Of a stretch of 51,816 nucleotides of DNA, positions 3,628 through 46,323 are shown piece after piece (within the stretch, counting starts at the first letter, position 1; every line of letters begins with the position of its first letter). Source of the stretch: a virus. The stretch lies in IMG/VR virus record IMGVR_UViG_3300005827_000005, positions 1 through 51,816 of that record, one strand, 5' to 3'. The translations under genes were made by a program, and so were the position numbers. Below the pieces are notes generated by a model that was given only the letters and a program-made list of their open reading frames with translations, ran no database searches and was not told where the DNA came from.

Positions 3628-3928
3628 TTTGCAGAAAAAAATACTATCTTTGATGCAAAGAAATAAAAAGATTACTCATAAATCACTAGCAAAAAAACTA
3701 GGTGTTGATGTTGATTTAGTAGAGAAATCTTGTGAAGATGAATTTTTTATTATAGCAAAAGAAGATTTGCTTAAAACAAGCGATGAAATTTTTTATGAAA
3801 TAAATGATATAGCTATCAAGAGATTAAAGCTTCTTGTTAATAGTTCTGATAGCAAAATTTCTCTAGATGCAATTAAGGAATATAATAAGCTTATGCCAAA
3901 ATCTAATGATTTTCTTTGGCGCAAGTAA
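3620..3928 (+). CDS. HTH protein, possibly terminase-small-subunit-like
   Basis: 102 residues from the ATG at 3620; an in-frame TTG at 3605 is possible. N-terminal residues about 5-40 look like a helix-turn-helix (KILSLMQRNKKITHKSLAKK then LGVDVDLVEKSC). The C-terminus AIKRLKLLVNSS...LDAIKEYNKLM resembles the alpha-helical end of terminase small subunits and related proteins. It is separated from terL by four genes, so a regulatory role is equally likely. It converges on the minus-strand MazG-like gene and overlaps its end by 26 bases. Confidence 0.45.
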   Translation: MNDLQKKILSLMQRNKKITHKSLAKKLGVDVDLVEKSCEDEFFIIAKEDLLKTSDEIFYEINDIAIKRLKLLVNSSDSKISLDAIKEYNKLMPKSNDFLWRK

Positions 3929-4229
3929 TCTCTTTAAATCTTTCAACTTTCATTTCTACAAATTTTTCTACTGCTATTTTTTCTTCCATTGGTAATTGAT
4001 TGTAAACTCTTGTTATTACAATAATTACATCTGCTAGTTCTTCATGGAAATTATATAAATTTTCTTTCGTTTTTGAACCTAATTGCATTTTGATGATTGG
4101 CTTGATTAGTTCCGACATTTCTTCACAAAGTTTCAGCTTGGTATTTTCATGACTGAACATTTTATTTGCTTTTTTAACAAAAGCGTCTTCGCTTATATAA
4201 TCTATAATATCACCTAACAGTTTATGCAT
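3903..4229 (-). CDS. MazG-like nucleotide pyrophosphohydrolase
   Basis: 108 residues. Expected to hydrolyse (d)NTPs to monophosphates and pyrophosphate in the cytoplasm, housekeeping the nucleotide pool or lowering ppGpp during infection. The all-alpha NTP-PPase signature is visible: E37-x2-E40 in KLCEEMSELIKP, and E64-x2-D67 in FHEELADVIIVI, which bind magnesium in this superfamily. Length suits a single-domain phage MazG-like protein. The start at 4229 follows AGGAA. It is the only minus-strand gene in the left third and is transcribed away from the 4321 gene across a shared control region. Confidence 0.75.
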   Translation of the reverse strand: MHKLLGDIIDYISEDAFVKKANKMFSHENTKLKLCEEMSELIKPIIKMQLGSKTKENLYNFHEELADVIIVITRVYNQLPMEEKIAVEKFVEMKVERFKEITCAKENH

Positions 4230-4810: not shown

Positions 4811-5087
4811 TCAATCTGAATTTACCGCACACGTTTCAGGATTGCTTAGTAAATCTAGAAAAGAAGTTGAGCAGATATATTTAAATAAAGAAACCGATAT
4901 GCTTAGTGCTATTATGTCTGGTATTTTGTTGCGTGCAAGAGATGAGGCTTGTATCAATAGAATGGGATTTATTCTTGACAGATTGATCGGAAAATCTGAG
5001 ACTGTAATACCTGATAAAACAATTTTTACTGTTGAAATGTCTGATAACGGTAGATTTAAAACACTTAGACCTAGAGAAATAGCGTAG
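4764..5087 (+). CDS. Putative terminase small subunit
   Basis: 107 residues from the ATG at 4764; a TTG at 4749 is also in frame. The central part, ETDMLSAIMSGILLRARDEA, then MGFILDRLIGKSETV, carries the x-LLxRA...LDRLIGK pattern common in small phage proteins just before terL. Terminase small subunits recognise the packaging site and load the large subunit. Assignment rests on this pattern and on position, 7 bases before terL. The recognition domain is not identified, so it could be another packaging accessory protein. Confidence 0.5.
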   Translation: MKPKIIKKQQTEVVFNQSEFTAHVSGLLSKSRKEVEQIYLNKETDMLSAIMSGILLRARDEACINRMGFILDRLIGKSETVIPDKTIFTVEMSDNGRFKTLRPREIA

Positions 5088-5094
5088 TGGTTTC

Positions 5095-6504
5095 ATGTCA
5101 AATGTTGTCGTTAGACTTCCTACACCACACGAAAAACAAAAAGAATTAGTTTTCTGGAAAGAAAAAAACCCGATCGCACAGGTTCTTGTTGCTCCTTGTG
5201 GTGTTAAAGTTGGTAAATCTTTTGGTTCAGCATTATGGCTTGCAATAGAAGCTATGATGTATCCTAATCTTTATTGTGTTTGGATAGCTCCCAGCTACAT
5301 GAAATCTAAAGTAGGATTTCGTTATATAAAATACATGTTACCTAATGTTAAAGGAATAAAAATAGTCGAATCACGGCTAGAAATAACATTGCCAAATGGT
5401 ACATTTATTAAATTTCTACACGGTAAAGATGCCGAGGCAACAATCGAAGGTGAGGCGGTAGATAGATTTGTTGTTGATGAAACTTCAAAACTAGAGCAAC
5501 AGCTTTGGTTTTCTTTGTTTACAACAATTTCTCAAACTGGTGGAATAGGAATCATTACAGGTTCTCCTAGGGGTTTTACGTGGTATTATGAACTATATCT
5601 AAAGGCTGTAAATGGTGACCCTTTCTTTTGTCATTTAACACTACGTTCTGTAGATTCTCCTTTTGTAAAAAGAGAAATAGTTGAACAAGCTCGAAAGATA
5701 ATGCCAAAGCATTTATTTGATCAGTATTACCTAGGTAAGTTTACATCTACATCAAGCGTATTCGGTGATATCGAAAATATGTTTGATGATCAATTAAAAT
5801 GTAATCCTGAAACAGTATTTTGGATTAATCCTGATAAAGAAAAAAGAAAAAAAGAAAGTATCACAGGATGGGATATTGCAAAGCATGTTGACTACTCGGT
5901 ATTCTACACGATTAGTTTAGACGGAGAATTAATAGGTTATTATCGTTTCAGAAAAGTAAAATATACTGATCAAGTTAAGAGATTGAAATCATATTTTGAG
6001 AAGTATTTTAATGAATCAGACAAGATGCTTAGATATGATAAAACTGGTGTCGGTAGTGCGATAGAAGATTTACTGTCAGAAGAAGATATAGATGCTTCTA
6101 TAACAGGTGTTGTTTTCTCTCAAGCCTCTAAACAAGAAATGGTTACAATTACAACCATGGCACTAGATTCCGGTTGGCACAAAGCACCACGAATTGAGCG
6201 TATTGCCCACGAATTTACAGCGTTAACAGTTAAAGTTACTAAGTCTGGATTATTTAGTTACTGCGCTCCTGATGGTGATCATGATGATGTTGTTATGGCT
6301 GCAATACTAGCAATTTCAGGTGGTTATAACATGCGAGATAGTGTTGATAATCAAGCGATAGATGAAGCGTTAGATTATGCAGAAGAAAATCAAGATTTAG
6401 AATTTTCGGAAGCAGCTAGAATTTTTTCTGGTGAAGATGATTTTGAAGATGATGAATCTTTTGAAGAAGAAGATGATGAAGTTTTTGATGATGTTTTTGA
6501 CTAA
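5095..6504 (+). CDS. terL: Terminase large subunit (ATPase-nuclease)
   Basis: 469 residues. The packaging motor cuts concatemeric DNA and pumps it into the prohead through the portal. Visible motifs: Walker A-like PCGVKVGKS (34-42), Walker B FVVDET (125-130), and coupling motif TGSPRG (155-160). The RNase H-like nuclease contributes D260 (GWDIAKH) and D397/D398 (GDHDDVVMA). Length is normal. The last 50 residues are an unusual acidic tail rich in D, E and F. The ribosome site is weak (GTGG), and it probably depends on coupling to the upstream gene. A terminator follows at 6510. Confidence 0.95.
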   Translation: MSNVVVRLPTPHEKQKELVFWKEKNPIAQVLVAPCGVKVGKSFGSALWLAIEAMMYPNLYCVWIAPSYMKSKVGFRYIKYMLPNVKGIKIVESRLEITLPNGTFIKFLHGKDAEATIEGEAVDRFVVDETSKLEQQLWFSLFTTISQTGGIGIITGSPRGFTWYYELYLKAVNGDPFFCHLTLRSVDSPFVKREIVEQARKIMPKHLFDQYYLGKFTSTSSVFGDIENMFDDQLKCNPETVFWINPDKEKRKKESITGWDIAKHVDYSVFYTISLDGELIGYYRFRKVKYTDQVKRLKSYFEKYFNESDKMLRYDKTGVGSAIEDLLSEEDIDASITGVVFSQASKQEMVTITTMALDSGWHKAPRIERIAHEFTALTVKVTKSGLFSYCAPDGDHDDVVMAAILAISGGYNMRDSVDNQAIDEALDYAEENQDLEFSEAARIFSGEDDFEDDESFEEEDDEVFDDVFD

Positions 6505-6662: not shown

Positions 6663-8870
6663 ATGAATCTAAATCCGTTTAGAAGAAAAACAATTATTGC
6701 TTTGCCTGATGTGAAAAAGGAAGAACTTTTTGATCTAGCAGAAGGCCAAGGCGATGAGGCAATGCAGCTTAGAATTGGCAATGCAATTCAAAAGCAATTG
6801 GATGATTCTAGTTTTTTTCAGTATGCAGAAAATAATCAGGAAGGTAATTACTTTCAATCTGAGTTTAATATTATAGCAACATCGGCTAGAATAAAAACAA
6901 CATACGCAAAAGAACCTTGGATTGCAGCAACAACAAATTTAATAGCAAAAAGTTTATCATCACTACCAATGAAAGTAGTTTCTGCTACAGATGAAGATTT
7001 ACCAAATCACCCGCTAAATGATCAATTAAAATCTGCGAATGTTCTAGACGGTGAACTAATGCAGCAATGGAAATGCGATATCGATTTCCTATTAGGCGGC
7101 AATGCATACATTATTTTTGATGAAAAATATAGATCGAGTATAGTTGTACCTTGTGAAATGTGCACTATCGATATAAATGAACAAACTCAAATGCCACAAT
7201 ATTTGTGCGTTGGTTCTGGAAAAAGTTATAGAAGATTTCCTTGGCAGCAAGTAGTTCATTTTAAATTCCCAAATCCTTACAACATGTATTACGGACTTAG
7301 TTTATACACTGCTGCAAGTAGACCTATTCTTTTAGATCGATACAAAAATGAATTTGAAATGGCATTCTACTTAAGGGGTGCAACAAACGCTGGTATTATT
7401 GAAACTACTGATGAAGTAAATAAAACTAGAATGCAGCGTTTAATGAGAACGTTTGAAGCGGTTTACACAGGTCGTAGAAATTGGTGGAGAACTATCTTTT
7501 TGCCCAAGGGTGCTAAGTGGGTTCAATCAGGCATGAAAATGTCAGAGATGCAATACTTGGAAACCTTGCGAGAGAACAGATTATCTATTTTAGCTTGTCT
7601 CGGTGTGCCTCCAGCAAAAGTTGGTATCACAACTGATGTAAACAGAGCGACTTCAGAAACACAAGATAAAGACTATTGGGAAAATACGATTAAACCAATT
7701 GCAAATTTCAAGGCTGCATGTTGGAATAATTCCTATTTAGTTAGAGTTATCTATAAGGGAAAAGTTAAAATAGTTCCTGATTTTGATGCAATTGAAGCAA
7801 TTGCTGGCAGTATGATTACAAAAGGCGATAAAGCTAAATCAATGCAGCCTTTCTTTTGGATTGATGAAATTAGAGAAAAAATTTACAAAGAAAAACCTCT
7901 ACCAAATAATGCTGGTCAAAAATTTGTTTCGGAAGTTTCTGCTTCACCAACTCCGATACAAAACTCATTACAATTAGATGCTGGAACCGTTGTTGATCAA
8001 CCGATTGAAGATCAAGTAATTGTTTTGAGCGCAAAACAAGGTGTTGTTGGTGATCAAGATCAACTAGAGCAAAAGCTTTCTCCGATGTATTCATCAAAAA
8101 TAGAAGATTTAACAGATTATATTTTAGCAATTGTTGAAAATGCGCTTAGAAAAGAAATGAATATTCTTAGTGTTTTAAATACCTTAGAGAAAAAATTTGC
8201 AGAAAAATATATTAGGTCTGTTGAAAGAATTTTAGTTGTCGCATTGCAGCGAGGTTTTAGTTTAGCAGAAGGTCAAGCTAAACAATTACGTGATACGATA
8301 TCGAACAAAGCAACTTTTAATGCACGTGATCAGCAAGCTATTGATGCTTTGAGAGAAGAACAGTTAGACGGACAAAAAACTCAGCTGTTGAAAAGGTCTG
8401 TGGAAAACTTTTATAAGTTTAACAAAACAACTACTTCTAGGATTATGGATATCATCGCAAATGGTGTTGAGGATGGAAAAACTCAAGATCAAATTGCAGC
8501 GACTATTCGAGAAAATTACAAAGAAAAATACAAAGGACAATCGAACACGATTACTAGGACAGAAATACTCACTTCTGTTTCTCAAGGTATGAAGTGGAAT
8601 CACGATGTTCTTAAAGAAGTTTTCGATGATGTCAAAAAACAATGGTTTCACGTTGGAGATGCTGGAAGTAATCCTGATGCTAGAGATAATCATTTTGGGT
8701 TTGAACAACTAGGTGTTGTCGATAGTGATTATAAGTTTGGCGGTGTTTTGAGCTACCCTAGGGACAACTCTGCACCAGCGGACGAGGTAATTAATTGCCG
8801 CTGCTCAATGGTTTCAGTCATTCCAAAAGATGCTAAGTCACATGCTGATATCATACTAGACAAGGTTTAA
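6663..8870 (+). CDS. Portal protein fused to a MuF/SPP1-gp7 head morphogenesis domain
   Basis: 735 residues from the ATG at 6663 (AAAAGG 9 bases upstream); an in-frame TTG at 6618 is less likely. Residues about 1-430 are an HK97-type portal, the dodecameric DNA channel at the capsid vertex: AATTNLIAKSLSSLPMKVVS, FLLGGNAYIIFD, LRGATNAGII and LGVPPAKVG. The last about 170 residues match the MuF minor head protein: TRTEILTSVSQGMKW, then HVGDAGSNPDARDNH and EVINCRCSMV. Portal and MuF are usually adjacent genes; here they form one chain. Between them lies a helical, Q/K/E-rich linker. Confidence 0.9.
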   Translation: MNLNPFRRKTIIALPDVKKEELFDLAEGQGDEAMQLRIGNAIQKQLDDSSFFQYAENNQEGNYFQSEFNIIATSARIKTTYAKEPWIAATTNLIAKSLSSLPMKVVSATDEDLPNHPLNDQLKSANVLDGELMQQWKCDIDFLLGGNAYIIFDEKYRSSIVVPCEMCTIDINEQTQMPQYLCVGSGKSYRRFPWQQVVHFKFPNPYNMYYGLSLYTAASRPILLDRYKNEFEMAFYLRGATNAGIIETTDEVNKTRMQRLMRTFEAVYTGRRNWWRTIFLPKGAKWVQSGMKMSEMQYLETLRENRLSILACLGVPPAKVGITTDVNRATSETQDKDYWENTIKPIANFKAACWNNSYLVRVIYKGKVKIVPDFDAIEAIAGSMITKGDKAKSMQPFFWIDEIREKIYKEKPLPNNAGQKFVSEVSASPTPIQNSLQLDAGTVVDQPIEDQVIVLSAKQGVVGDQDQLEQKLSPMYSSKIEDLTDYILAIVENALRKEMNILSVLNTLEKKFAEKYIRSVERILVVALQRGFSLAEGQAKQLRDTISNKATFNARDQQAIDALREEQLDGQKTQLLKRSVENFYKFNKTTTSRIMDIIANGVEDGKTQDQIAATIRENYKEKYKGQSNTITRTEILTSVSQGMKWNHDVLKEVFDDVKKQWFHVGDAGSNPDARDNHFGFEQLGVVDSDYKFGGVLSYPRDNSAPADEVINCRCSMVSVIPKDAKSHADIILDKV

Positions 8871-34887: not shown

Positions 34888-35213
34888 TTTTTAACCTCTA
34901 TTTTATTTGAAATAATTATATTTATTTTACAAAATGAACCATCGTAAAATCCTTCACCGTAGCATTTATTATTATCGACAATTAAATTGAATTTGTTTTT
35001 ATTTTTAGAAATAAGTTTTGTTTTTTTTGTTAATAAATCAAAACTACCAGAAAAATTCTCAACATATTTTTTATTATCATTGAATATTTGTATAAAAATA
35101 AAATCTTCATCAATTAATAAATGGCAATATGCTAGAAATTCTTTATTTTTAAGTACCATACAATTTTTACAAAACCAAGATTGTTGGACTTTAGTTGGCC
35201 GAACTTCCTTCAT
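34884..35213 (-). CDS. Small cysteine-containing hypothetical protein
   Basis: 109 residues. A CxxC pair near the start (SWFCKNCMVLKNKE) suggests a half zinc ribbon. The remainder is beta-rich, with FIFIQIFNDNKKYVENFSG and KCYGEGFYDGSFCKINIII. Overlaps both neighbours. Not recognised. Confidence 0.45.
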   Translation of the reverse strand: MKEVRPTKVQQSWFCKNCMVLKNKEFLAYCHLLIDEDFIFIQIFNDNKKYVENFSGSFDLLTKKTKLISKNKNKFNLIVDNNKCYGEGFYDGSFCKINIIISNKIEVKK

Positions 35214-35496
35214 TTAACACCTTTTTTATAGTATTATCGTCAATAAATAAATTCTCTAAAACTTCTTTTACTTGATCGCATGTAAAGAATCTATTTTTTG
35301 TTGTTGGTGGGTTATTCCAGTGTTTGATAGCTTCATCTCTATCATCGTACCCAGATGTACCGTACGGCTGCACAACACATTCACTATTTTGACATACAAC
35401 AAAACTTTTTCCTAGCTTAGGTTCTCGAACAGTACAAGGTTCTTTTCCGCACCATGGACACCTTCTCATTTTACTAAATATATTTATATTATCCAA
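35191..35496 (-). CDS. Lar-like zinc-ribbon protein
   Basis: 101 residues. The first 65 residues show the Lar/restriction-alleviation zinc-ribbon pattern: RRCPWCGKEPC, then FVVCQNSECVV, then the closing DRDEAIKHWNN (AI..WN). The Rac-prophage Lar protein alleviates EcoKI restriction, and many phages carry relatives of unproven function. The C-terminal about 30 residues are an extra helical part. It lies next to SSB in the leftward block. Confidence 0.7.
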   Translation of the reverse strand: MDNINIFSKMRRCPWCGKEPCTVREPKLGKSFVVCQNSECVVQPYGTSGYDDRDEAIKHWNNPPTTKNRFFTCDQVKEVLENLFIDDNTIKKVLNEGSSAN

Positions 35497-35510: not shown

Positions 35511-35828
35511 TTACATTTTTTTTATATTTTCAGCTTTTATTTGATAAGTATTAACATCAATACCTTCTTTTGATTTATATTTAGTTCCTTCTATTGTTCC
35601 TTCAACTAAAACCATTGTTCCTTTTCTTAAGTTTTCGCAAGAGTAATCAGCTAACGAACCCCAACAAATTACATTATGCCAAGTCGTTATTTCTTGAAAA
35701 TTTCCTGATGAGTGTTTTTGTTTTATTGTTGTTGCTAGTTTTAAATTTGCAACAGATGTATTATTTGTAGTAACTCTTTTTTCTACATCTTTTCCCAATC
35801 TTCCTATTAATATTACTCTATTCAACAT
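35511..35828 (-). CDS. ssb: Single-stranded DNA-binding protein
   Basis: 105 residues. OB-fold SSB that coats single strands during replication and recombination: MLNRVILIGRLGKDVEKRVT, then TTWHNVICWGSLADYSCENL, then GTMVLVEGTIEG. It ends right after the OB fold (QIKAENIKKM) and lacks the acidic partner-binding tip found in bacterial SSB. It is the first gene of the leftward block; TATAAT on the minus strand at 35854-35859 may be its -10. Divergent from the recombination genes. Confidence 0.92.
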   Translation of the reverse strand: MLNRVILIGRLGKDVEKRVTTNNTSVANLKLATTIKQKHSSGNFQEITTWHNVICWGSLADYSCENLRKGTMVLVEGTIEGTKYKSKEGIDVNTYQIKAENIKKM

Positions 35829-39889: not shown

Positions 39890-40528
39890 ATGCTGGAAGT
39901 AAAAGGTAAATTCATTGAACCACATTTTGTTAGTGAAGTTGGAATGATTGGGTTGACGTGCGTAGATATAGCTAGAGCTCTAGAAATAGACTTAAGAGAT
40001 TTACATAAAAAAATTAAAAGAGACACATGGACTAAAGATGAATCATGGAAACCAATTTCATATATTGTTAATAAAAATATTAAATCGGGGGCATATGTCC
40101 CAATGAAAAGAGAATCTTATTTTTTCTTTTCAATTCAAGGTGCTAAGGCGTTTGTAGCAAAATATAACAATAATGTTGGTGACTCTTATTTGAAGTTTCT
40201 TTTTGATTGTGAAGAAGCAGCTTTACATAAAATTCCACAGTTACAAAACATAATCAATCAATTATTAAACAAGAAAAAAGTTAAACATAAAAGAGGGTTG
40301 ATTGTAACAACTAAAGCAATAATCAGAAAAGGTTTGTTTGAACCAATTGTAGAAATAATAAAAGAAAAAGTGCTATTAGATGAATTGAGCTATGCTGAAC
40401 GTGAACAATGGGCTTTTCAACATAGATCATTAATAGCAGAAGGTTTAATGAGAAAGAATAATGAAAAAATTAGAGATTCAAAGATAATACCAATATCAAC
40501 ATCAACAATAAAAAAGAAAGATAAATAA
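39890..40528 (+). CDS. Antirepressor-like protein (Rha/ORF6N/Bro-type N-terminus)
   Basis: 212 residues. N-terminal half has the general feel of phage antirepressors: VGMIGLTCVDIARALEIDLR, then YFFFSIQGAKAFVAKYNNNV, then YLKFLFDCEEAAL. The C-terminal half is basic, with LSYAEREQWAFQHRSLIAEG. No repressor gene is visible, so it may act on host or prophage regulators. The family match is by pattern only. Stop overlaps the next start by 1 base (TAATG). Confidence 0.5.
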   Translation: MLEVKGKFIEPHFVSEVGMIGLTCVDIARALEIDLRDLHKKIKRDTWTKDESWKPISYIVNKNIKSGAYVPMKRESYFFFSIQGAKAFVAKYNNNVGDSYLKFLFDCEEAALHKIPQLQNIINQLLNKKKVKHKRGLIVTTKAIIRKGLFEPIVEIIKEKVLLDELSYAEREQWAFQHRSLIAEGLMRKNNEKIRDSKIIPISTSTIKKKDK

Positions 40529-40728
40529 TGAGTAACCAAACTATACTTGCGATTATCATTAAGATTTGTGGAATAAGTGAAGTTGAAATGAAAAATAATA
40601 TGTTCGAGCAAGAAGAAAAATCTAGATGTTTTGCTATTGCTAATGTATGTGCGATAAATTATAGAGAGGCATTAGAATTTGAATCATGCTTAATTGAGAT
40701 AAAAAAGAACTCGGAGAAAAAGAAATGA
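40528..40728 (+). CDS. Small hypothetical protein
   Basis: 66 residues: MSNQTILAIIIKICGISEVE, then a helical, lysine-rich end. Not recognised. Coupled by overlaps to both neighbours. Confidence 0.45.
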   Translation: MSNQTILAIIIKICGISEVEMKNNMFEQEEKSRCFAIANVCAINYREALEFESCLIEIKKNSEKKK

Positions 40729-41180
40729 TTGATAGAGTATGCATTTGTATTTTAACTTTTTTGATTTGCTTTGTAATTATAATGACAATTAAATATTATG
40801 AAGAGTACAAGGTGTTAAAATTTAAATATGATAATTTGAAAGAATATGAAAAATATTTACAAGATAATATACGTAATTTAGAAGTAAATTTAACTAAAAC
40901 TCATTGTGAAAAAAGAGAACTAAATAAATTAATTGATGATTTAAAAAATACGTTTAATTCAGATGATATTAAGCTTAAAATTTTAGAATTAAAATCATTA
41001 GGAACAATGTCAAATGAATTGTGGTACAAGCCAAAGTTTTTTAAATTTAAAGATATTAGTGAAATTCATGAAGGAAAAATATATTATCCTTCAAAAAGAT
41101 TTTTTCATCAAAAAAATAATAATGCTATAGTAATTGGTGATAGTTGGGACAGTATGTATTTTCCAGTAAAGGATTTATAA
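40725..41180 (+). CDS. Membrane-anchored coiled-coil protein
   Basis: 151 residues. Transmembrane helix at about 4-22 (VCICILTFLICFVIIMTI), a coiled coil at about 25-75 (YEEYKVLKFKYDNLKEYEKY), and a small globular end with WYKPKFFKFKDISE, then GDSWDSMYFPV. It lies 1 base before the PspA-like gene, suggesting a membrane partner for it. Not recognised. Confidence 0.55.
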   Translation: MIDRVCICILTFLICFVIIMTIKYYEEYKVLKFKYDNLKEYEKYLQDNIRNLEVNLTKTHCEKRELNKLIDDLKNTFNSDDIKLKILELKSLGTMSNELWYKPKFFKFKDISEIHEGKIYYPSKRFFHQKNNNAIVIGDSWDSMYFPVKDL

Positions 41181-41181
41181 A

Positions 41182-41976
41182 ATGGGATTTGTTAGCAGTT
41201 TATTTAGATTAATAAAGTCGATTTTTGGTTTGGCTGAAGGCGGAACAGATAGAGCAACAAAGAATCTTATCACGGCTTCTCCTGATATGATTAGAAATCA
41301 GTTTCAGAAAACAAGAAACGATTGGATTAAAGACTATGAAGAAATGAAAGAAGCTATTGCAGAATTGAAAGTTATAGCTAATCAAAAGAACGATGAATTA
41401 ATCGAGCTTGAAAAGAAGCAAATCAAGTATGAACAATTGATGATTGGAGCTATTGAGCAATTTAAAAAAACACAAGATGAAAATTTAAAAACTAAATATG
41501 CTCAATATGCAGAAATAAAAGAAGCTGTAGATAAAGAAATTTTAGAAACGAAAGAATTAATAGTTTCTCAAGAAAAATTAATAGACAGCTACACATTAAA
41601 ATTAAATGAATTAAAGGTAAACATAGATAATTTAAAGCAAGAAGAGGCTAAAACTATAGCTGAAATAACATCAAGTAGAAAAATTCAAAGTATTAACAAT
41701 AAACTTCAGGGATTAACTACTGATACTCAATCAAGAAATCTAGATGCAATCAGAGAAGAAGCAAAAAAAGCAAAAGCTATATCACAAATTTCTAGTAAAA
41801 TTTCTGGTGATGATGATAATGAGCAAGAAAAAATATTGCTAACATCTGCTAAAAGTTCTAAGTTTCTAGATGAATTTAATAAAGCAACAGCATTTGACGC
41901 TATATTTGTTGAAGAACCAAAAAAAATAAGCAGCGTTTCAAGTTCAGGCGATAAAATAGATAGTCTATTTTCGTAA
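41182..41976 (+). CDS. PspA/IM30-like (ESCRT-III-type) coiled-coil protein
   Basis: 264 residues. Begins with an amphipathic, membrane-seeking helix (MGFVSSLFRLIKSIFGLAEG). A long charged hairpin of coiled coils follows (about 40-165), then a helical section with RKIQSINNKLQGLTTDTQSR, reminiscent of PspA/Vipp1 C-terminal helices, and a serine-rich tail. PspA-type proteins polymerise on damaged inner membranes and stop proton leak. The assignment is structural; no catalytic residue is expected. It lies 19 bases before the vWA gene, and similar pairings are known in bacterial membrane-stress loci. Confidence 0.5.
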   Translation: MGFVSSLFRLIKSIFGLAEGGTDRATKNLITASPDMIRNQFQKTRNDWIKDYEEMKEAIAELKVIANQKNDELIELEKKQIKYEQLMIGAIEQFKKTQDENLKTKYAQYAEIKEAVDKEILETKELIVSQEKLIDSYTLKLNELKVNIDNLKQEEAKTIAEITSSRKIQSINNKLQGLTTDTQSRNLDAIREEAKKAKAISQISSKISGDDDNEQEKILLTSAKSSKFLDEFNKATAFDAIFVEEPKKISSVSSSGDKIDSLFS

Positions 41977-41995
41977 ATATTAGGAGATTTTTAAA

Positions 41996-42601
41996 ATGAA
42001 TACAGAGGATTTAATGAAAAGAAATTATGTGTTATTAATTGACAAATCAGGAAGCATGAGCACCGTTGAAAACGGTAAATCACGTTGGGAAACTGCAAAA
42101 GAATCTACATTTGCTTTAGCCAGAAAATGTAGTGAGTTTGATCAAGATGGTATCGATGTATTTTTCTTTAATAGTAGTTTTAAAGAATACAACAACGTAA
42201 CTGCTGAAAAAGCACAAGACTTATTTAACCATGAAGAACCTATGGGTGGTACTGATTTTGTTCCAGTTCTTAAAAAGGCTTTTGAAAATCATTTCAAACA
42301 AAATGATAAACCAACAACTATCCTTGTTATTACTGATGGTGAACCTAGTGATGGTTTAACGGCTCAAAAAGCTACTGCTAAATTGATTGTTGAAACTTCA
42401 AACAAACTTGAAGCAGATGGTGATTTAAGTATTTCTTTCTTACAAGTTGGTAGTGATCCAGCAGCGGAAAAATTCTTGAAAACTCTTGATGATGATTTAC
42501 AAAAAGCTGGTGCTAAGTTTGATATCGTAGACACTAAGACATTTAAAGAATTAGAAAACATGTCTATTGTTGATGTTTTAATTGCATCTATTAACGACTA
42601 A
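41996..42601 (+). CDS. Stand-alone von Willebrand factor A domain protein (MIDAS intact)
   Basis: 201 residues, a single vWA domain of TerY-like type. The metal-ion-dependent adhesion site is complete: D16-x-S18-x-S20 in LLIDKSGSMS, T86 in MGGTDF, and D114 in VITDGEPSD. It has no signal or membrane segment, so it is cytoplasmic and would act as a metal-dependent protein-binding scaffold. Good ribosome site (TAGGAG). It follows the PspA-like gene and is closed by a strong terminator. Its function in a phage is unknown. Confidence 0.85.
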   Translation: MNTEDLMKRNYVLLIDKSGSMSTVENGKSRWETAKESTFALARKCSEFDQDGIDVFFFNSSFKEYNNVTAEKAQDLFNHEEPMGGTDFVPVLKKAFENHFKQNDKPTTILVITDGEPSDGLTAQKATAKLIVETSNKLEADGDLSISFLQVGSDPAAEKFLKTLDDDLQKAGAKFDIVDTKTFKELENMSIVDVLIASIND

Positions 42602-42609
42602 ATTTTTTT

Positions 42610-42635
42610 AGCAGCCTTAATTGGCTGCTTTTTTA
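42610..42635 (+). terminator. Intrinsic terminator after the vWA gene
   Basis: AGCAGCC (42610-42616), loop TTAATT, GGCTGCT (42623-42629), then a run of T to 42634. Confidence 0.9.
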
Positions 42636-44691: not shown

Positions 44692-44877
44692 AGTCATCAT
44701 TGGGTTGTTTGAATGGTTGATGAAGAAAAATTATTTAAAATTTTAATCAGTGAATATATTCATAAAGATAAGTTTATTTTAACACATGGTAATAAAATAG
44801 GAAAAACTTTTTTGCAAAAATCATTCAAAGATAGGATAGAAAGCAATGAATATTTTAAATTGATAGGAGAAACAAAA

Positions 44878-45288
44878 ATGAATACAGAATTTAATTTAAC
44901 GATAGGCCAAGCGATTGATTTGATGCAAGATGGTTATCCAGTGTGTAATGAGAAGAATCCTAAAATTAAATATTTTATGATAAATTCAATTATTAAGGCA
45001 CAAGATAATACTTATAGTGCTGAAGGAATAGCGTATGTCTCACTTGATTTTATTGAACGTAATTTAGGTTATTTTTTCAAAGAATATACCGATCCGAAAG
45101 AAGTAAAAATGATTACGTGGTATATACCTACTATTATTTGGCATAAGAACGCTTGGTTTCCACTATACGATGGTTCAAAATGTTATAAAAACAAAGATGA
45201 ATTTTTTACTGAATACTCTAAGAAAGAAATAAAAGTTCTTGAATGGAAAGAAATTCAAGCACCTGAAACTTGGGAGCAATGCGAATAA
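44878..45288 (+). CDS. GQAIDLM-family protein, copy A (possible Tad2-like)
   Basis: 136 residues from the ATG at 44878 behind GGAGA; the frame stays open upstream to an ATG at 44713, which would add 55 residues but has no ribosome site. The start NTEFNLTIGQAIDLMQDGY resembles the L-x-x-x-EAL-x-L-x-x-GK opening of small anti-Thoeris Tad2/DUF2829 proteins, and the body is aromatic (YFFKEY, WYIPTIIWHKNAWFP). The last residues PETWEQCE are shared with copy B. Tad2 binds cyclic ADP-ribose signals; relation is weak and by pattern only. Confidence 0.5.
   Translation: MNTEFNLTIGQAIDLMQDGYPVCNEKNPKIKYFMINSIIKAQDNTYSAEGIAYVSLDFIERNLGYFFKEYTDPKEVKMITWYIPTIIWHKNAWFPLYDGSKCYKNKDEFFTEYSKKEIKVLEWKEIQAPETWEQCE
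44887..44925 (+). repeat. 39-bp direct repeat, copy 1
   Basis: It is identical to 45667-45705 except for one base (TTTAATTTAAC against TTTAATTTGAC). It encodes the shared EFNLTIGQAIDLM start of the two GQAIDLM proteins. Confidence 0.9.
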
Positions 45289-45473: not shown

Positions 45474-45674
45474 ATGAATGAATACGAAAAAGAACAAGAA
45501 TGGAAAAAGAAAGTAAATTTAAAAGAGTGTAATTGTTGTGAAACTTGCAAATACAGTACACCTATTGATGATCGAGAATCTATCTGTGAATTTGAAATAG
45601 AAATACATTATGTTTCTGATTTAAGTGTTTGCGATAATTTTTATAAGGATGAGGAAATAAATGAGCGAATTTAA
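45474..45674 (+). CDS. CETCKY small zinc-binding protein, copy A (intact)
   Basis: 66 residues. Cysteines in NLKECNCCETCKYSTPI, then ESICEFE, and VCDNFY form a CxxC...C...C pattern found in small phage proteins of unknown role. Charged N-terminus (NEYEKEQEWKKK). About 94% identical at the DNA level to copy B at 46129. It overlaps the next gene by 14 bases. Confidence 0.6.
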   Translation: MNEYEKEQEWKKKVNLKECNCCETCKYSTPIDDRESICEFEIEIHYVSDLSVCDNFYKDEEINERI

Positions 45675-45894
45675 TTTGACGATAGGCCAAGCGATTGATT
45701 TGATGATGCAAGGTAAACGAATGGTTTCAAATAACCACTCGGAGCACTTCTATTCTATGATAATAGACTTTCATCATGTACTTTTTACGGTAGATAATTT
45801 AGGAGGTGGTGGTGTTAGAACAGACTTAAACGTTGATTTTAAATCAATGTGGAGAGAATTTACTCCACCTGAAACTTTGGAGCAATGCGAATGA
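45661..45894 (+). CDS. GQAIDLM-family protein, copy B (short; possible Tad2-like)
   Basis: 77 residues. It starts SEFNLTIGQAIDLMMQGKRM and ends WREFTPPETLEQCE, matching copy A at both ends, with an unrelated and shorter middle (HSEHFYSMIIDFHHVLF, LGGGGVRTDLNV). The size is close to stand-alone Tad2/DUF2829 proteins, which open with L-x-x-x-AL/AI-x-L-x-x-GK. Anti-Thoeris activity is only a suggestion. Confidence 0.5.
   Translation: MSEFNLTIGQAIDLMMQGKRMVSNNHSEHFYSMIIDFHHVLFTVDNLGGGGVRTDLNVDFKSMWREFTPPETLEQCE
45667..45705 (+). repeat. 39-bp direct repeat, copy 2
   Basis: Second copy of the repeat at 44887-44925, one mismatch, in the same reading phase. Confidence 0.9.
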
Positions 45895-46128: not shown

Positions 46129-46323
46129 ATGAATGAATACGAAAAAGAAAAAGAATGGAAAAAGAAAGTTAATTTAAAAGAGTGTAATTGTTGTGAGACT
46201 TGTAAATACAGTACGCCTATCGATGATCGAGAATCTATCTGTAAATTTGAAACAGAAATACATTATGTTTCCGATATAGTATTTGTGATAATTTTGATAA
46301 GGATGAAGATTACAGATGAGTGA
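46129..46323 (+). pseudogene. CETCKY protein, copy B, frameshifted at the C-terminus
   Basis: 64 residues as read. The first 48 match copy A almost exactly (NCCETCKYSTPIDDRESIC), up to HYVSD. Then one base is missing relative to copy A (GATTTAAGT against GATATAGT, near 46274-46277), and the frame yields IVFVIILIRMKITDE. Restoring the base gives ...SICDNFDKDEDYR and a stop at 46317-46319 in an ATGA overlap with the next gene, exactly the arrangement expected of an intact gene. The conserved last cysteine (CDNF) is lost. Confidence 0.75.

Follow-up and report, generated by a model that had tools for sequence, protein, structure and literature searches.

A phage locus pairing a divergent PspA-family protein with a TerF-like vWA protein, and its possible role at the host inner membrane

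Introduction

Proteins of the PspA family coat and repair bacterial membranes. ESCRT-III-superfamily proteins encoded by phages have, to our knowledge, hardly been described. The presence, in a virus, of a gene for a PspA-like protein directly upstream of a gene for a vWA protein therefore raises the question of what such a pair could do during infection. We address this question for a virus record of 51.8 kb with about 30% G+C (the whole stretch of DNA analysed, hereafter the window), whose gene order is of the tailed-phage type. A preliminary description, made from the letters of the sequence, had proposed a membrane-stress trio: a membrane-anchored coiled-coil protein, a PspA/ESCRT-III-like protein and a vWA protein. 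Here, we re-examine the genomic setting, the identity of each protein and the relatives of the locus in other phages and in bacteria.

Genomic setting of the locus

The window carries genes for terminase (position 5095), portal (6618), tape measure (16404), a Gp157-like protein (35896), helicase (38201) and primase (48242). The nearest primases found belong to the group of Bdellovibrio phage phi1422 (31% identity to phi1422 itself, up to 35-37% in metagenomic relatives); in the stretches fetched for these relatives, neither a PspA-like nor a vWA gene is present. Left of the Gp157-like gene, the window encodes a Lar-type restriction alleviation protein (35191-35496, - strand; Pfam 1.3e-7), adjoined by an ORF judged by eye to be single-strand-binding-like (35511-35828). 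The Lar homologue and the primase relatives together suggest that the host is Gram-negative. Elsewhere, a MazG-type nucleotide pyrophosphohydrolase is encoded at 3903-4229 (- strand; Pfam 8.5e-6), and PADLOC returned sub-significant matches only.

The helicase and primase genes are separated by 8.5 kb in the window, versus 0.26-5.5 kb, mostly less than 2 kb, in 55 of the 56 related loci that share this gene order (for the 56th the value is negative). This interval is packed with small genes, which places the PspA-vWA pair in a cargo region that adjoins the replication genes and lies well away from those of the virion. The same region contains two pairs of similar small ORFs, 45474-45674 with 46129-46323 (MNEYEKE...) and 44713-45288 with 45661-45894, the latter encoding proteins with a common FNLTIGQAIDLM; both pairs are probably recent duplications.

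The two genes close an overlapping, co-directional run (39890-42601, + strand) that starts upstream of the trio singled out in the preliminary description. The probable first gene encodes a 212-aa protein (39890..40528) and is followed by a 66-aa ORF (40528..40728) that overlaps both of its neighbours and lies in the same transcription unit; neither product has a family match in Pfam or PHROGs. Then comes a 151-aa protein (40725..41180, +), in which the membrane-anchored coiled-coil protein described earlier is readily recognised, with a single N-terminal transmembrane segment (Kyte-Doolittle maximum 2.77) preceding a coiled coil. Its stop codon lies 1 bp from the start of the next ORF, and it is a possible membrane anchor, but it has no significant family match in Pfam, PHROGs or NCBIfam; with no detectable relative, its membership is uncertain and it might not be part of the set. 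The 264-aa PspA-like protein (41182..41976, +) and the 201-aa vWA protein (41996..42601, +) are encoded by the last two ORFs, with a 19-bp gap between them and a strong ribosome-binding site. An intrinsic-terminator-like hairpin followed by a T tail (42610..42629, +) was found by hairpin scan where a terminator had been proposed; by chance alone, the region scanned should contain 0.7 such hairpins, yet this one stands directly after the vWA stop codon.

This arrangement bears on whether the proteins could be virion components or assembly chaperones, as in MoxR-vWA pairs. Such a role has a precedent in some viruses, where vWA proteins act as co-chaperones with MoxR ATPases (PMC7824862), but the structural genes are distant, the pair lying outside the virion-gene block, Pfam detects no MoxR-type AAA+ ATPase gene in the run 39890-42601, and the homology of the first protein is to PspA. 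We consider this explanation highly improbable.

Intermediate homologues link the 264-aa protein to the PspA family

Direct searches with the 264-aa protein retrieved nothing from Pfam, PHROGs, NCBIfam or PDB sequences and nothing by tblastn against phage and plasmid sequences, nor did scanning viral and genome contigs for peptide patterns yield a match; against PF04012, the PspA/IM30/Vipp1 family, there was no match at E <= 1. The proposed PspA/ESCRT-III identity, invisible in this way, is supported through intermediates. In 386 Cyanobacteriota genomes, the protein gave weak matches, the best with an E-value of 6.3e-6 for a single genome or about 2e-3 for the whole set. Five of these matches are PspA-like proteins of one subclade; the four of them that were scanned all match PF04012 above cut-off (7e-17 to 4e-21). 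An HMM of the five subclade proteins aligns with residues 1-228 of the 264-aa protein, starting from the first methionine, with an E-value of 2.4e-12, and this protein is its sole match among the 138 ORFs of the window. The profile-alignment score of the protein against the subclade is 61.6; the highest control scores are 31.3 (40 shuffles that preserve the heptads), 22.5 (14 natural helical segments) and 18.5 (segments of the tape measure).

Since the subclade had itself been found using the window protein, we checked other routes to PspA. A broad HMM constructed without the window protein, for which the subclade was combined with E. coli PspA, PspA/Vipp1 of cyanobacteria and a single PspA from a faecal phage, again had the 264-aa protein as sole match (2.5e-5), the composition bias being large. 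A tblastn search with one of the subclade proteins led to gp247 of Bacillus phage G and to a gene of LR756511, a phage of 595 kb, both of them PspA-like. The product of the LR756511 gene matches the 264-aa protein directly, with 5.6e-12 in phmmer and 8e-10 in BLASTP (as a single comparison). Taken through these intermediates, the 264-aa protein very probably belongs, as a divergent member, to the PspA family, and hence to the bacterial ESCRT-III superfamily, in which PspA and Vipp1 are described as membrane remodellers (PMC8281802). A profile comparison with classical PspA alone scored 25.8, with controls reaching 22.5, which is suggestive but indecisive and was not taken as proof.

The alignment with PF04012-positive proteins is full-length, includes the N-terminal amphipathic helix and contains the conserved LKxE block and the G-L ... 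LDxhRE region, although the window protein is too divergent for PF04012 itself. It differs from its nearest subclade by a 7-aa insert after the amphipathic helix and by an extra C-terminal tail. The helix predicted in the preliminary description is borne out: residues 1-15 (41182..41226, +) align with the subclade N-termini and are the equivalent of PspA alpha-0, with a hydrophobic moment of 0.53 over residues 1-18 (0.52 in E. coli PspA; shuffle p = 0.002) and of 0.64 over residues 2-16 (p = 0.001). The long coiled-coil hairpin described alongside it fared less evenly, as the single-sequence AF2 model predicts a continuous coiled-coil-type helix at residues 34-164 (pTM 0.31) in which no hairpin turn is resolved; Foldseek found no match for this model.

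A phage PspA could also interfere with the host Psp response, by co-polymerising with host PspA or titrating it or its regulators and so resetting the stress response. E. coli PspA is both regulator and effector, and the phage copy is divergent, as such a role might have it. However, no pspB-, pspC- or pspF-like gene was detected by Pfam among the neighbouring ORFs (39890, 40528, 40725 and 41996), and interference would leave the vWA partner unexplained, which makes this explanation very unlikely in our view.

The vWA protein belongs to a family found beside genes for membrane proteins

The 201-aa protein matches Pfam VWA_2 (3.4e-10, 40.9 bits) and vWA-TerF-like (PF10138; 2.6e-8, 34.7 bits for a cut-off of 29.4), both above cut-off, with the general VWA_2 model scoring higher. 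AF2 predicts a single domain (pLDDT 87.7, pTM 0.87), for which the Foldseek matches are RGLG and other vWA domains. Together with 43-52% identity over the full length to cyanobacterial plasmid vWA proteins, this indicates a cytoplasmic single-domain vWA protein of TerF-like/cyanobacterial type. The ORFs, the sequence, Pfam and AF2 all agree with the earlier account of three ORFs, a 19-base gap and a single vWA domain with intact D-x-S-x-S, T and D residues. The phage members of the family comprise 82 viral loci with 61 distinct sequences, and in a FastTree phylogeny the window protein falls among members from phages and cyanobacteria and has no close sister. Among 60 phage rows of the alignment, the MIDAS motif D16-x-S18-x-S20 (42041..42055, +) retains D16 and S20 in 59 and S18 in 58, and both T86 (42251..42253, +) and D114 (42335..42337, +) are invariant. 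Metal binding therefore appears to be under selection in the phage family.

TerC is the one clear recurrent neighbour of this family, with its gene downstream of the vWA gene in 9 of 50 phage contigs. At eight loci (L007, L008, L011, L032, L139, L154, L162 and L167), the phage vWA gene is followed by TerC within about 0.02-1.5 kb, forming a recurrent two-gene cassette. A band-7/SPFH gene lies upstream of the vWA gene in a 175-kb phage contig (L011:2423-4603) and in Streptomyces phage Yaboi (L002:2317-6585), and in the Calothrix plasmid pCAL6303.02 (L006:7998-10974) a vWA gene of the same family stands directly upstream of a dynamin-family gene. TerC, band-7 and dynamin proteins are all membrane proteins or membrane remodellers.

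No PspA gene is present at the phage vWA loci examined or at 80 cyanobacterial loci, so the PspA-vWA pairing is not ancestral to the vWA family. An apparent PspA match in L169 (E 2e-4) corresponds to a short ORF that overlaps others and lacks PspA features, and was dropped. Since the searches turned up this PspA-vWA pair at no further locus, the functional link between the two proteins rests on their adjacency in one phage. One may then suppose that they are two unrelated cargo genes, chance neighbours in a hypervariable region, each acting by itself with a host partner. The habit of the vWA gene of occurring without PspA and the location of the pair in a cargo island agree with this, but the two genes stand side by side in one direction with 19 bp between them, a strong ribosome-binding site is present, a terminator-like hairpin comes immediately after them, and PspA and vWA recur together in LR756511. 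We therefore regard chance juxtaposition as unlikely.

Comparison with other phage and bacterial systems

Trios of this kind had been described as typical of bacterial membrane-stress systems. This is borne out only loosely: the trio turned up at no bacterial or phage locus, and the usual neighbour of the vWA protein is TerC. The nearest precedent is a huge-phage operon in which PspA goes with a different, exported vWA protein, OmpA/NMT1 proteins and an ABC transporter. In this 595-kb phage (LR756511.1, an unannotated record; L303:3072-11634), an operon-like co-directional run encodes OmpA/NMT1-type proteins, the exported vWA protein (4891-5769), a transmembrane protein and the PspA homologue (7992-8825), and continues with a lipoprotein-like gene, an ABC permease and an ABC ATPase. 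The content of gp243-gp250 of Bacillus phage G (L302:5672-12757) resembles that run; gp247, for which the annotation gives no function, is matched by the subclade HMM (1.1e-14) as a PspA homologue and stands beside an ABC permease, an ABC ATPase and two OmpA/NMT1 proteins. LR756511 thus shares with the window a PspA homologue and a vWA gene in one run, combined independently. Its vWA protein, however, is exported and of another type, homologous to that of the window at the domain level only, and in both large phages PspA is associated with an ABC transporter and OmpA/NMT1 proteins, whereas the run of the window has no transporter. A relationship between the transmembrane protein of the window and that upstream of the LR756511 PspA was rejected, the two showing no relation by BLASTP.

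A phage-encoded PspA has been hypothesised to act as an anti-Abi factor in Kuttervirus SeF3a, where it is proposed to protect membrane energisation (PMC9409062). The 264-aa protein likewise is a PspA-like protein on a phage, but it has no match to the corresponding phrog_1203, and the account of the SeF3a protein, in the parts consulted, mentions no vWA partner (PMC9409062). In bacteria, PspA is found with membrane partner genes such as band-7/flotillin (PMC11237479); band-7/SPFH proteins are reported as PspA partners (PMC8581546, PMC11237479), and an SPFH protein is described as connecting PspA to the membrane (PMC8581546). The text of the 2024 PSP survey names no vWA partner (PMC11237479).

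The phage-borne Ter systems (TerC, TerD, TerF vWA and TelA; PMC7824862) resemble the locus in their TerF-like cytosolic vWA protein, and sub-membrane structures are proposed for both. TerF vWA, TerC and TelA on jumbo phages have been proposed to act in superinfection conflict or exclusion (PMC7824862). By analogy, the pair could assemble into a Ter-like structure beneath the membrane and keep the DNA of competing phages from entering, instead of repairing the membrane, as the vWA-TerF-like match above cut-off and the TerC neighbours of its relatives might suggest. In the window, however, PspA stands in place of TelA/TerC: no match to TerC (PF03741) was found in this virus, no TerD, TerB or TelA was recognised among the Pfam-scanned proteins, and PspA is known for membrane stabilisation rather than exclusion. 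A role in superinfection exclusion is thus possible but rather improbable.

Possible role of the pair

Membrane sealing is the reading that we rank first, while holding it tentatively: the pair may be an early or accessory cassette acting at the cytoplasmic face of the host's inner membrane and keeping that membrane sealed. We favour it because of the PspA homology, the amphipathic helix, the near-invariant MIDAS residues and the vWA fold, as well as the neighbours of the vWA family (TerC, band-7, dynamin), the cargo position and the PspA, vWA and ABC transporter run of LR756511. Against it stand the missing direct PF04012 match and fold match, the one long helix modelled instead of a hairpin and the failure to find a second locus with the pair. 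By analogy with PspA, the PspA-like protein would bind stressed or leaky membrane via its N-terminal helix and polymerise there. The vWA protein could be an adaptor dependent on divalent metal, which would control the PspA polymer, recruit it or attach it to a membrane protein, a role that may be filled elsewhere by TerC- or band-7-linked partners. The host membrane would then stay sealed and energised during phage replication, and host defences that kill by making the membrane leak would also lose some of their effect. In its boldest form, with the vWA protein as metal-dependent switch of an ESCRT-III-like PspA polymer in a two-component sealing machine directed against membrane-permeabilising host systems, the proposal seems doubtful to us.

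As the preliminary description had supposed, no phage system with this exact set has come to light: PspA with this type of vWA protein is a new combination, found nowhere else in the collections searched, although each half is of a known kind. Phage PspA as an anti-Abi factor (PMC9409062) and Ter/vWA proteins on jumbo phages acting against superinfection (PMC7824862) are among the earlier proposals. A widespread, unexplained phage vWA family is now linked to the membrane proteins TerC, band-7, dynamin and PspA. The pair described here and the PspA operons of phage G and of the 595-kb phage offer small, testable cases of phage-managed host membrane integrity, and the pair itself suggests that the virus protects or manages the inner membrane of its host during infection.
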